From the IMG/VR virus record IMGVR_UViG_3300048129_000028, positions 1 to 25,395 of that record: a stretch of DNA of 25,395 nt; one strand, written 5' to 3'. This document shows, piece by piece, positions 3,774 through 22,742 of this stretch. The notes beneath the pieces are model-generated. The model was not told the DNA's origin. It ran no database searches and saw only the letters and a list, made by a program, of their open reading frames with translations. The translations under genes and the position numbers were made by a program. Numbering within the stretch: position 1 is the first letter of the stretch; the number at the start of each line of letters is the position of its first letter. Source of the stretch: a virus.

Positions 3774-5008
3774 TTAGCTAGCTACAAGCTCGATGGCTGC
3801 AGCAGGGTTAAGGACACCGGCACCCATGGCCAAGCGACCAACCACCACGTCACCTTGGTACATTGTCTTCACGTCCGAACCTGTGGTCTGGACTTGAGGA
3901 CCAATGCCTTCGACAACAGCAGCAGCATCACGCATGTAGATGAGGCCAGCGTGGTTGGAGAAGTCACCGGAGTAATCGTTGTTCTCACCATCGACACGCG
4001 CAACAGTACCAGCCATGAAAGGCAGGTTGTTAGAACGACGGATAGAGATGCCAGCGATCTCATAGAGACCTTCACCAGAGTTCAAGGAACCTTGGGAAGC
4101 GCCAAAGTCCCGGTTGAGAATATTTGTGTCAACCTGAGAAATCAATCCGTAGTACTGACGAGGAGACAGCACAGCGAAACGACCCTCAGAAGGTACGTTC
4201 TTCTCATCCAAGATACTTGCCGCTTCAAAGAAGCCATCGACTAAAGCCTGAGCATTCAGTTGATTGCCAGAGCCAAGGTTGATCTGTGAACCACCAGGTT
4301 CGCCAGTGATAGGACTAGCTTCACGAGCGGACTTAGCGATCATGCGGAAGATCTTTTTGTCATAGGACTCAGCAAGAGCATGACCGATCTTTGCAGAAAT
4401 CTCAGACCTCAGGCTGTAATGAGCAAGTGTCTCATCGAGTTCATACAAAAATGCAGAAGCAACCAGCAGGTCATCCATGATGATCGTCTTCTCAGCCACC
4501 GGAGGATCACCGGATCCGAGGATCGGAGTTCCAGGTGTGTGGTAGCCAGCTTCCATACGTCCCGTGTAGATGAACTGCAGGGACTTGCCGTTACGCAGGG
4601 TACGAGACTGGACAGTACCTTTGGCGATACATGCAGACTCGTAAGCTTTGATCATCTCCATGATCATCTCTATTTTTCAATAGAGCACGGACTATATCTT
4701 CACCCGTGAGGGTGTCGGACGCTAGTCATGTTTTACGCGGGACGCTTCCCGCACCATGTAGTCTCTGAACCTTCCCTTCAAGCGTGAAGGGCTTGGCTGC
4801 TGATTGCCTTAGCTATTGCCTTAGGTTTCCAGCAATTCATCCGATTATCAATTTAGGGTTTCTCCTAATTGGGGCAAGATTATTTACCCGAAAAGAGTTT
4901 GAGATAAGTTGCGTACTTGGCATCATAGTTAGCTCCACCTTGGGTAAGGTTAAGAGTTGATGGGTTCTGATTAATAGAACCAATTGGAGTAATAACTGAA
5001 TTAGCCAT
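3774..5008 (-). CDS. major capsid protein (T7 gp10-like), interrupted by a group I intron
   Basis: The gene is in two exons: exon 1 at 4886-5008 (41 codons, MANSVITPIGSINQN to YLKLFSG) and exon 2 at 3774-4658 (EMIKAYESACIAKG to the stop). Splicing out 4659-4885 gives a 335-aa protein, close to T7 gp10A (345 aa). Exon 2 carries RTLRNGKSLQFIYTGR, the G-loop/E-loop region typical of T7-like capsids, and FAVLSPRQYYGLI further on. Without splicing, exon 1 continues one codon and then meets TAA. Exon 2 alone has an in-frame ATG at 4667, but it lacks the conserved N-terminus. HK97-fold shell protein, assembled on the scaffold encoded at 7426-8193. No clear Shine-Dalgarno precedes the ATG at 5008. 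Confidence 0.92.
4659..4885 (-). ncRNA. group I self-splicing intron (IA-like), no ORF
   Basis: 227-nt intron between GGT (codon 41) and GAG of the capsid gene. Visible elements on the minus strand: P1 formed by exon GGGU with intron GCCC, with U-G at the splice site; P2 (AATTAGG/CCTAAATT); P3 (TCGGAT near 4843 with GTCCGA near 4710); P element AATTGCTGGAAACC (4824-4837) and Q element AATCAGCAGCC (P4: GCTG/CAGC); P6a hairpin CCCTTCA-CGCT-TGAAGGG; R element GTTCAGAGACTA (near 4760-4770); an extra hairpin GCGGGA-AGCG-TCCCGC after R, as in subgroup IA; P8 CACCC-TCAC-GGGTG; S element AAGATATAGTCC (4688-4699, P7 GACTA/TAGTC); P9 (4668-4685) with a GAAA loop; terminal G at 4659. P10 can form between ATCTT of the intron start and GAGAT of exon 2. 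No homing endonuclease is encoded. Confidence 0.92.
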
Positions 5009-5169: not shown

Positions 5170-5619
5170 TTATACATTCAATCGTTTTAATAGCAGATAA
5201 TCTATTGCAAACATTCCGCCACCGTTAAATAAAATATTGACTGCTCCACCAAAGTAGAGACCAAGTAATTCAAGCAGATAGATATTAAATCCACTTGTAA
5301 GTATGGCGTGATAGATAGCAATAGTTATGGTGCCTGCTATAGCTAGTGCACCAACTCTAGTAAGAAAACCAGTAATCAGTAACCAGCTACCTACTATTTC
5401 AGAAAATGCTGCTACATAAGATAGAGCAATTGGAAATGGTAAGTGTAATGGTTTTACAAAAGCTTCAGCAAAGTTTTCAATGTTCGCAAGCTTCTCATAA
5501 CCGTGATGTATCAGCAACACACCTACGCACAATCTAATAACAAAAAGTCCAATAGATTTAAGTGGCAGGTTTGGAGGAGACAACAGCACGCGGCTTGCGA
5601 ATGACAATAAATGCGTCAT
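5170..5619 (-). CDS. DoxX-like membrane protein
   Basis: 149-aa integral membrane protein with about four hydrophobic segments. GLFVIRLCVGVLLIHHGYEKL is the DoxX-family first helix with its His-Gly motif; the later segments AFSEIVGSWLLITGFLTRVG and LELLGLYFGGAVNILFNGGG also fit DoxX. DoxX proteins are small membrane proteins linked to redox or thiol stress in bacteria; the exact reaction here is unknown. The ATG at 5619 lies inside the preceding 74-aa gene (62-base overlap); a GTG nearer its stop is an alternative start. The gene sits in a host-derived cargo block with psbA, between scaffold and capsid, so it is probably expressed late with psbA. Family call from motif and topology only. Confidence 0.72.
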   Translation of the reverse strand: MTHLLSFASRVLLSPPNLPLKSIGLFVIRLCVGVLLIHHGYEKLANIENFAEAFVKPLHLPFPIALSYVAAFSEIVGSWLLITGFLTRVGALAIAGTITIAIYHAILTSGFNIYLLELLGLYFGGAVNILFNGGGMFAIDYLLLKRLNV

Positions 5620-5782
5620 TGTTATATCTACGGGTGCCTTTTTCGGGAGCCCATTTAGTGCCAGCACCTTCAATCTCGTAAACTTGAGTTCCGCCAATGA
5701 CGACCTCAAGTTCTTCTGAAGAAAAGCCCAGCTCCTGCAGTGCAGAAGCCAGACTACTCAGGAAATCTACTGTATTTTCCAT
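5558..5782 (-). CDS. hypothetical protein linked to psbA
   Basis: 74-aa soluble protein beginning [19 protein letters not shown]. An amphipathic first helix is followed by a likely beta-rich part (EVVIGGTQVYEIEGAGTKW, then DAFIVIRKPR). The ATG overlaps the psbA stop (TGATG), so it is translationally coupled to psbA. I do not recognise the family. It could be a virion or host-interaction protein; there is no sequence evidence for a photosynthetic role. Confidence 0.65.
   Translation of the reverse strand: MENTVDFLSSLASALQELGFSSEELEVVIGGTQVYEIEGAGTKWAPEKGTRRYNNDAFIVIRKPRAVVSSKPAT
5629..5638 (-). promoter_or_regulatory. possible phage RNA polymerase promoter core
   Basis: The minus strand reads GGCACCCGTA, which matches ten consecutive bases of the promoter reported for the related cyanophage Syn5 RNA polymerase (ATTGGGCACCCGTAA). 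It lies within the 74-aa gene, just before the DoxX ATG, so it could drive doxX and capsid. Only one such match was seen, the flanks differ from the Syn5 site, and the codons (KGTRR) could explain it by chance. Confidence 0.25.
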
Positions 5783-6858
5783 CAACCGATTGCAGGTGCA
5801 GTCAGTGCGACAGGAGTGGACTCAGCAGTAGCGAGATCCAGTGGGAAGTTGTGTGCATTTCTTTCGTGCATCACTTCCATACCAAGACCGGCACGGTTAA
5901 GAATATCTGCCCATGTGTTCACCACATGACCTTCACTCGAATTAATGGATTGATTGAAGTTGAACCCATTGAGGTTAAAAGCCATGGTACTGACGCCGAG
6001 GGAGGTAAACCAGATACCGATAACTGGGAATGCTGCGAGGAAAAAATGCAGTGACCTAGAATTGTTAAAGCTAGCATATTGAAAAATTAGTCGTCCAAAG
6101 TATCCGTGAGCCGCAACGATATTGTAGGTCTCTTCCTCTTGACCAAACTTGTATCCATTGTTGTGGGATTCTTGCTCGGTAGTTTCCCTAATAAGCGAGG
6201 ATGTGACGAGACTTCCATGCATAGCTGAGAAGAGAGCGCCACCAAATACACCAGCGACACCAAGCATATGGAACGGGTGCATGAGAATATTGTGTTCAGC
6301 TTGGAAAACGAGCATATAGTTAAATGTTCCACTGATACCTAGAGGCATAGCATCACTAAAAGATCCTTGTCCAAATGGGTACACAAGGAAGACTGCAGAA
6401 GCTGCAGCAACTGGAGCTGAGTAAGCAACAAAGATCCAGGGACGCATACCTAGTCGATAACTAAGCTCCCATTCTCGTCCCATGTAAGAGTAGATACCAA
6501 TAAGGAAGTGGAACACAACGAGTTGGAAAGGTCCTCCGTTGTACAGCCATTCATCGAGGGTGGCTGCCTCCCAAATCGGATAGAAGTGCAGTCCAATAGC
6601 GTTACTGCTGGGTACGACTGCGCCTGAGATGATGTTGTTCCCGTAAAGGAGGGAACCTGCGACTGGTTCTCTGATTCCATCAATGTCTACTGGTGGTGCT
6701 GCAACGAATGCAGTGACAAAACAAATGGTTGCTGCAAGTAGTGTTGGGATCATAAGGATCCCGAACCAACCAACATACAACCGGTTATTAGTGCTGGTTA
6801 CCCAGCGACAGAACTCATCCCAATTAGAACGAGACTGCTGTTGAATTAATGCGGTCAT
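5782..6858 (-). CDS. psbA: photosystem II D1 protein
   Basis: 358-aa reaction-centre protein, full length. It keeps the host function: electron transfer in PSII of the infected cell's thylakoids, replacing photodamaged D1. The key residues are present, one position lower than in standard numbering because the N-terminus is one residue shorter: Tyr-Z at 160, Asp 169, Glu 188, His 197 and the C-terminal [13 protein letters not shown], which would be cut after Ala to expose the Mn-ligand carboxylate. The residue equivalent to D1-130 is Glu (YMGREWELS), the high-light D1:2 type. No intron interrupts it. It starts a cargo block after the basic-protein genes; a 42-base gap upstream has no convincing promoter. 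Confidence 0.99.
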
Positions 6859-21842: not shown

Positions 21843-22742
21843 TCAGATAGCAGCCATCGCGTCCGTGAGTGCTGCATCTGTAGCCTTTGCATATCGTAAT
21901 GTTGTTTCGATACGCTTGTGTCCGCACAGAGCCATGATGTTTCTGATTGGGACGCCAGCCTCAGCGAGCCATGTCGCGTAACTGTGTCGTAGTGTGTGAA
22001 AGACATAAGAATCCTCCTTTGGAATAAGACGGTTGACTTTCTTAAACGCACGCAATAACTGATCCTTATTGCGCCATTCATCGCCGAATAATTGAACATC
22101 AGACCGCGATGATTGTGAACAACGAGATGTAACTAGGTCCATGATTTTTCTATGGATCGGTATAGCTCGCCAGTTCTTAGCCTTTGTTGTTTGAGTGGGT
22201 ACACCACCGACATGGATCTTGTTAGCTACAAGGTCAATGTCTTTAGCCCTGATCTTTAAGATCTCACCCTCCCTCATGCCTGTGTAGGCACCAAACAGGA
22301 TGATGTCCCTGAGATCCTCACGCATGAATACATCTGTGGACAGGAGACACATTTTGTCTACCTCATCCTTGGTGTACCAGAGCACACGTCCCTCTGATTC
22401 TTTGCGTCTACGGAACTTTGGTGCATGGTCAATGAGTCCATCGAAGGCACAATGATTGAGCACAGTCGAGACTGCCGAGACAACTCGGTTAATAGTTGCG
22501 TCACTCTTACCCTCGTCTTCCAGTTCGATACAAACTTGGGAGATGATTGGCTGAGTGATCTTCCGTACAGGGAAGGAAGAACCTCGCAATCTGGTGAAGT
22601 GATTGCAATTGATGGCTGAGGTTTTAGCTCCATTGCCATGCCTCCATGAGTGTCGTGTTTGGAATGTGTAATCCATGGCTTGTTGCCATGTTCTGATCTC
22701 ATCCATAGATGGTGGATTTAATGAGGTGGACAAGTTGCTCAC
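21843..22742 (-). CDS. int: tyrosine site-specific recombinase (integrase)
   Basis: 299-aa phage integrase. Catalytic residues: Arg in GMREGEI (about 156), HTLRHS (His-x-x-Arg, about 250), His in GHKR (about 275) and the nucleophile Tyr in RYAKA (about 283). The N-terminal part is a core-binding SAM-like domain (QQAMDYTFQTRHSWRHG). GTG start at 22742 overlaps the upstream gene by 44 bases; the ATG at 22706 is an alternative with less overlap. All catalytic residues are intact, so the enzyme may be active, though lysogeny of such cyanopodoviruses has not been shown in culture to my knowledge. Confidence 0.95.
   Translation of the reverse strand: MSNLSTSLNPPSMDEIRTWQQAMDYTFQTRHSWRHGNGAKTSAINCNHFTRLRGSSFPVRKITQPIISQVCIELEDEGKSDATINRVVSAVSTVLNHCAFDGLIDHAPKFRRRKESEGRVLWYTKDEVDKMCLLSTDVFMREDLRDIILFGAYTGMREGEILKIRAKDIDLVANKIHVGGVPTQTTKAKNWRAIPIHRKIMDLVTSRCSQSSRSDVQLFGDEWRNKDQLLRAFKKVNRLIPKEDSYVFHTLRHSYATWLAEAGVPIRNIMALCGHKRIETTLRYAKATDAALTDAMAAI

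Follow-up and report, generated by a model that had tools for sequence, protein, structure and literature searches.

How can a T7-like cyanophage make its major capsid protein from a gene whose frame, without splicing, reads a lysine and then a stop codon right after codon 41? This question is raised by the window, i.e. the whole stretch of 25,395 nucleotides that was analysed here. Cyanopodoviruses abound in the ocean, and their capsid genes serve as markers. In our study, the interruption is explained by a self-splicing, ORF-less capsid intron of group IA type which would have arrived recently and be mobile at the DNA level; the probability of this explanation as a whole is placed at about 0.95. 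The capsid gene lies on the minus strand and is organised as follows.

5008..4886, minus strand: exon 1 of the major capsid gene, codons 1-41, ATG start at 5008 (spliced-frame translation)
4885..4659, minus strand: group I intron (IA-like), 227 nt (RF00028, own covariance model and empty site)
4658..3774, minus strand: exon 2 of the major capsid gene, codons 42-335, beginning GAG ATG ATC AAA (phrog_267, 4bml and 2xd8)

Exon 1 encodes MANSV...KLFSG, ends in CTC TTT TCG GGT (L-F-S-G) and has an N-terminus with a homologue in the intronless relatives L008 and L009. The intron begins with AAATAATCTTGCCCC and finishes with ...ATGATCATG, the terminal G lying at 4659, and its length of 227 nt is not divisible by 3. 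Its removal joins codons 41 and 42 in translation into a 335-amino-acid major capsid protein, and the spliced junction reads TCGGGT/GAGATGATC in the predicted message. This protein was found to match the phrog_267 major head protein over residues 11-334 (5e-75) and to align through residues 41/42 with the solved capsids 4bml (residues 19-329) and 2xd8, so that homology to T7-like (cyanopodovirus) major capsid proteins extends along the length of the spliced product. The interruption after codon 41, the 335-amino-acid product of excision and the T7-like cyanophage context, which a preliminary description of this DNA had proposed, were all borne out by the translation and by these phrog_267, 4bml and 2xd8 comparisons; psbA, which it had taken to be intact, is uninterrupted at 6858..5782. 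A DoxX-like membrane protein is encoded between psbA and the capsid gene (5170-5709), and a tyrosine integrase at 21843-22742. Window positions 4650-4670 hold a direct repeat, GAGATGATC-ATG-GAGATGATC, made of the intron 3' bases and the exon; as it contains two in-frame ATGs, gene callers will begin a 297-amino-acid capsid ORF within the intron. Since gene callers split intron-bearing capsids in this way, such alleles are under-reported.

In a whole-window Rfam scan at curated cut-offs, the group I intron family RF00028 was the sole match (118.4 bits against a cut-off of 50 bits, E 1.3e-30, window 4895..4668). The preliminary description had proposed this search, with the lack of a group I hit counting against it; the match covers the full length of the model (1-253 of 253). 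The intron has the P3-P8 core of the family, in which P7 forms a pseudoknot over P3. Readings of the insert as an intein, a frameshift or a pseudogene were excluded by stops in all three frames together with the full-length group I match.

The intron is one of a series. Capsid loci were gathered by capsid-protein and intron-sequence scans and checked by tblastn gaps and a covariance model, which gave related ORF-less introns at eight cyanopodovirus capsid-gene positions, 41 introns in 34 distinct contigs, the count taking in partial introns at contig ends. The positions are listed below, with a slash at the insertion point.

Site A: LFSG/E, the site of the window
Site B: the codon before HTPG
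Site C: LDETLS/HY
Site D: VDG/FFE
Site E: Q/YY
Site F: V/QYQG
Site G: YQG/D
Site H: SLRG/E

Intron lengths in this series range from 196 to 234 nt. IMG/VR contig 3300020414_000298 (L255) has four introns in its capsid gene (A, B, E and F), and their removal gives a full-length protein. Intron-bearing loci are a minority in protein-selected samples (2/80, 2/80 and 12/80). Site A is filled in three deep capsid clades and the introns group partly by site, and the eight sites share only a short guide-complementary sequence, e.g. GGGT/GA at sites A and G of the L091 gene. The P-SSP2 and P-SSP3 capsid genes, which tblastn had suggested to be intron-split, were rejected from the series. In P-SSP2 the annotated frame stays open over a greater length (1314 nt; L334 1276-2589) and the intron model finds nothing there, so the roughly 60 additional codons of these two genes are an in-frame insertion and not a group I intron. 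A glutamine-II riboswitch was observed 5' of the capsid gene in three cyanopodovirus loci (L088 4555-4611, L098 7167-7220 and L099 1768-1821).

A covariance model of our own, made from 21 introns, scored the window intron at 244.6 bits, and its matches in 1.38 Mb fell at capsid insertion sites only. Helices P3, P4, P6/P6a, P7, P8 and P9 are seen in the window intron, and its structural elements are given below.

4872..4875, minus strand: internal guide GCCC, forming P1 with the 5' exon GGGU (4889..4886)
4876..4880, minus strand: P10 guide half AUCUU, pairing with the 3' exon GAGAU (4658..4654)
4838..4844, minus strand: P3 5' strand UCGGAUG (alignment columns 54-60, covarying with 183-189)
4759..4763, minus strand: P7 5' strand GACUA, the guanosine-binding core, invariant in 21/21 introns and pairing with 4694..4690
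4727..4758, minus strand: extra two-tier hairpin, an IA-type P7.1 extension between P7 5' and P3 3'
4715..4721, minus strand: P3 3' strand (21-intron alignment)
4701..4714, minus strand: P8 hairpin (compensatory changes in 5/5 pairs)
4690..4694, minus strand: P7 3' strand UAGUC (21-intron alignment)
4668..4685, minus strand: P9 hairpin CUCUAUU-GAAA-AAUAGAG (Rfam alignment and single-strand fold)

Across the 21 introns, P3, P4, P6 and P8 covary and P7 is invariant. Standard pairs occupy 99.2% of the cells of the group I structure compared to 82.1% after shuffling, and pairing falls to at most 40.6% when the partners are slid. Two-sided (compensatory) changes were found in 28/44 pairs, amounting to 158 cells against 46.5 in the shuffled alignment. 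The extra hairpin (columns 144-177), two stacked helices with compensatory changes in 8/9 pairs, lies between P7 5' and P3 3', where group IA introns have extra helices, and the assignment is made to the IA level. Moreover, the window intron folds more strongly than its dinucleotide-preserving shuffles (z = -4.2, 0/200). RNAalifold's pairing of columns 131-133 with 140-142 conflicts with P6/P7 and was rejected; P6 and P7 were used in the tested structure. The insert is not a chance resemblance, given the exact empty site in L008 and L009 (described below) and the pairing of 99.2% of the cells in 21 introns. On the sequence evidence, 4885..4659 is confirmed as a complete group I intron, and its excision from the capsid message is predicted. 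The group I assignment and boundaries of the preliminary description therefore hold, with the 118.4-bit match and the exact empty site behind them, and the following elements that it had named are present: the U-G at the splice site, P3, P6a, P8, the GAAA loop of P9, the IA-type extra hairpin and the terminal G.

The guide sequences fit the splice sites as well. The 5' exon ends in U, which forms a U.G pair with the guide at the 5' splice site (GGGU/GCCC in P1), and the exon-final U, the U.G pair in P1 and the intron-final G were found in the window and in the other 26 introns tabulated. P10 was scored by counting how many of six positions pair, with permutation and sliding as controls, as a rule of unbroken pairing undercounts site B. 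The window has 5 pairs of 6, and the mean over the sites is 4.43 of 6 compared to 2.84 with permuted exons (0/20,000). The pairing maximum coincides exactly with the predicted 3' splice site, and at other insertion sites the guide varies jointly with the exon. Since this P10 pairing is site-specific, the guides fit their own sites.

In the proposed mechanism, the intron RNA folds within the late capsid mRNA, as the sequence and the covariation show. By the chemistry of the family, a guanosine bound in P7 would attack the bond that follows the U of GGGU; exon 1, once released, would use its end to attack the bond that follows the terminal G (4659), while exon 2 is held in place by P10. Ligation would restore codons 41-42 and the 335-amino-acid capsid protein. 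It may be argued that the intron is a dead relic which has kept its fold and lost splicing, the capsid being made as a 42-amino-acid peptide and a 297-amino-acid protein from the ATGs at 4667/4661, and an ATG-started ORF of 297 codons does cover the intron 3' end together with exon 2. This is hardly credible, since the core pairs are retained with compensatory changes in 21 introns, the guides covary with the exons, solved T7-like capsids can be aligned to the N-terminal segment and on through the junction, and a useless insert in an essential gene is expected to decay or to be purged.

How the intron reached this gene is indicated by its relatives. IMG/VR contigs L008 and L009 have an exact empty site and are 98% identical to the window in the exon-2 protein: L008 2759-3000 aligns with window 5127-4886, and L008 from 3001 aligns with the window from 4658. 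The window intron and the site-A intron of L091 are identical at 225/227 positions (99.1%), compared to 78.9% for the capsid exons. The site-A introns of L017 and L024 match the window intron at 187/227 and 177/227 positions at a similar exon distance, and L255 and L256 share one and the same intron sequence (224/224). The nearest relatives of L017 and L024, namely L015 and L025, have no intron, and intron-bearing genes stand beside intronless ones in the capsid tree (window/L008, L017/L015 and L024/L025). The window and L008/L009 thus present the same gene with the intron and with an exact empty site, as do further pairs.

The exon next to the intron also carries a trace.

4886..4901, minus strand: putative co-converted 5' exon flank, with the only four differences between the window and L008 from -123 to +191

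These four differences within a 96%-identical capsid gene lie at -16, -13, -10 and -4; all are synonymous and no more than 16 nt away from the intron, and each shows the L091 base in the window. Selection for guide pairing could be the cause at -4, and could not be at -10, -13 and -16. We read the donor-like flank as probable short-tract gene conversion, a homing footprint. In L017 and L024 the serine codon adjoining the intron is TCG against AGT in their intronless sisters, a switch which is hard to achieve by single steps. When 16 discordant pairs are taken together, the 24 nt nearest to the intron hold an excess of exon differences, with a ratio of 1.97 compared to 1.05 +/- 0.23 in matched intronless pairs (3/1000 as high), where the p-value is rough because the control pairs share loci and are not independent. 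Near-identical introns in capsids which differ by about 21%, a clean empty site in a 96%-identical capsid and the co-travelling 5' tract together argue for DNA-level movement, and by these comparisons the window intron is a recent arrival. Some contigs were seen to break at or inside capsid introns (L018 at position 1, L095 and L097 at their starts and L093 at its end), which suggests mixed intron-plus and intron-minus populations fragmenting the assembly.

DNA-level movement would proceed via break repair or gene conversion, probably once an endonuclease whose gene lies elsewhere has cut the intronless alleles. The 227-nt intron of the window contains no homing-endonuclease ORF, and the capsid-flanking loci that were examined yielded no homing endonuclease, the window itself being a 25-kb fragment, so that neither an encoded nor a linked enzyme accompanies the intron there. 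A search of 18 contigs, mostly fragments, with four Pfam families gave no GIY-YIG gene, and the HNH genes of these contigs occur with and without introns alike and do not track intron presence. As the introns have no room for an enzyme, the flanks have none and HNH and GIY-YIG genes do not track the introns, the endonuclease for the window intron probably acts in trans. F-CphI of cyanophage S-PM2, a homing endonuclease encoded outside an intron (PMC6083498), is a precedent, whereas no such enzyme was found next to the window capsid gene. The window intron works like a homing intron, and we do not claim its membership among mobile introns that bear a homing endonuclease gene.

Two other histories may be weighed against recent homing. 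The intron may be old and vertically inherited, its patchiness being due to repeated precise loss; the filling of site A in three deep capsid clades and the partial grouping of introns by site would agree with this. Such a history is very unlikely in view of the 99.1% intron identity against 78.9% in the exons for the window and L091 and the 224/224 identity of the L255 and L256 introns, and precise cDNA-mediated loss would not yield a donor-like flank on the intron-bearing allele. Alternatively, reverse splicing into the capsid mRNA followed by reverse transcription may have placed the intron. Its lack of an ORF fits this route, and the short guide-complementary sequence, all that the eight sites share, means that it could explain moves to new sites; for the window intron it is improbable, since the co-converted 5' flank and the flank excess in discordant pairs are what DNA break repair, and not reverse splicing, is expected to leave. 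Recent DNA-level arrival of a splicing intron remains our preferred explanation.

Capsid-gene group I introns have already been published for other phages, and no new principle is involved. Mycobacteriophage LittleE (Cluster J) has one, with lactococcal Tuc2009 cited alongside, and its splicing was demonstrated by RT-PCR and N-terminal sequencing (PMC3706429). As in the window, a tailed phage carries the intron in its major capsid gene and removal gives the full-length protein; LittleE, however, is a temperate actinobacteriophage with an 819-bp insertion and a homing endonuclease ORF, whereas the window has 227 nt without an ORF in a T7-like cyanophage. In crAss-like phages of the Delta and Zeta groups, major capsid protein genes carry group I introns and one is in five pieces (PMC7886860), comparable to the four-intron capsid gene of L255. 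Those introns belong to large gut phages and were located via intron-encoded endonuclease domains, whereas the capsid series described here is ORF-less. The psbA introns of cyanomyoviruses S-PM2, S-RSM88, S-SRM01 and S-CBWM1 resemble the window intron (about 73-74% over 70%), which sits instead in the capsid gene. T7-like cyanophage Pf-WMP3 has a group IA2 intron in its DNA polymerase gene (PMC3428280); it shares with the window a group IA intron in a protein gene of a T7-like cyanophage, and differs in the gene, in its own HNH endonuclease and in its freshwater filamentous host. Jug huge phages have group I introns of about 206 nt in essential genes, half of those tested being spliced in metatranscriptomes (PMC12363816); these are gut phages with examples in terL, nrdD and DNA polymerase genes, compared to the capsid gene of the window.

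The hint of novelty in the preliminary description is therefore upheld in part: no annotated marine cyanopodovirus isolate with a capsid intron was found among those inspected, and capsid introns as such are known from LittleE and the crAss-like phages. No paper on cyanopodovirus capsid introns was found in the literature searched, which covers few subscription journals. What goes beyond the routine is the eight-site, ORF-less and recently moving intron series. Such a multi-intron series, in which near-identical plus and minus alleles occur, lets the spread of introns that lack their own endonuclease be studied as a natural experiment, and it could also show if splicing constrains when, or how much, capsid protein is made.

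Relatives were also found outside T7-like capsid genes. Two intron-core patterns retrieved 49 contigs. In about 35 of them the interrupted gene encodes a major capsid protein, of T7-like type in about 20 and of four further capsid families (PHROGs 1357, 371, 1005 and 1328) in the remainder, and in four it encodes ribonucleotide reductase; as the patterns were built from capsid introns and near-duplicate contigs occur, the capsid share is biased and serves as a lead rather than a rate. It is tentatively suggested that phage capsid genes may be the main home of these small ORF-less introns, which might spread among co-infecting cyanophages by DNA homing with a trans-acting endonuclease, into at least four unrelated capsid families and repeatedly at conserved codons.

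Major head genes of other phages are interrupted in L160, L166, L157, L159 and L172 (PHROG 1357), L162 (371), L158 (1005) and L169 (1328), often by two or three related introns close together. Three contigs (L122, L124 and L125) also carry psbA, and hence some of the other-family hosts are cyanophages. The ribonucleotide reductase introns are in L163, L167, L168 and L170; a GIY-YIG homing endonuclease frame was confirmed in L163 (phrog_5123), and similar frames follow in the other three. A second group I intron of the phage of L017 lies at L164 1950-2160, a reverse-complemented locus (G003:C1:4341-4551), in a gene similar to that of the class Ia ribonucleotide reductase beta subunit (phrog_6799). 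Two MAG contigs, labelled Moraniibacteriota (L355) and Paceibacterota (L356), carry an intron whose core sequence is related. In freshwater cyanophage S-SRM01 (L003 2464-3171), two full group I matches lie within and after the annotated psbA pieces.
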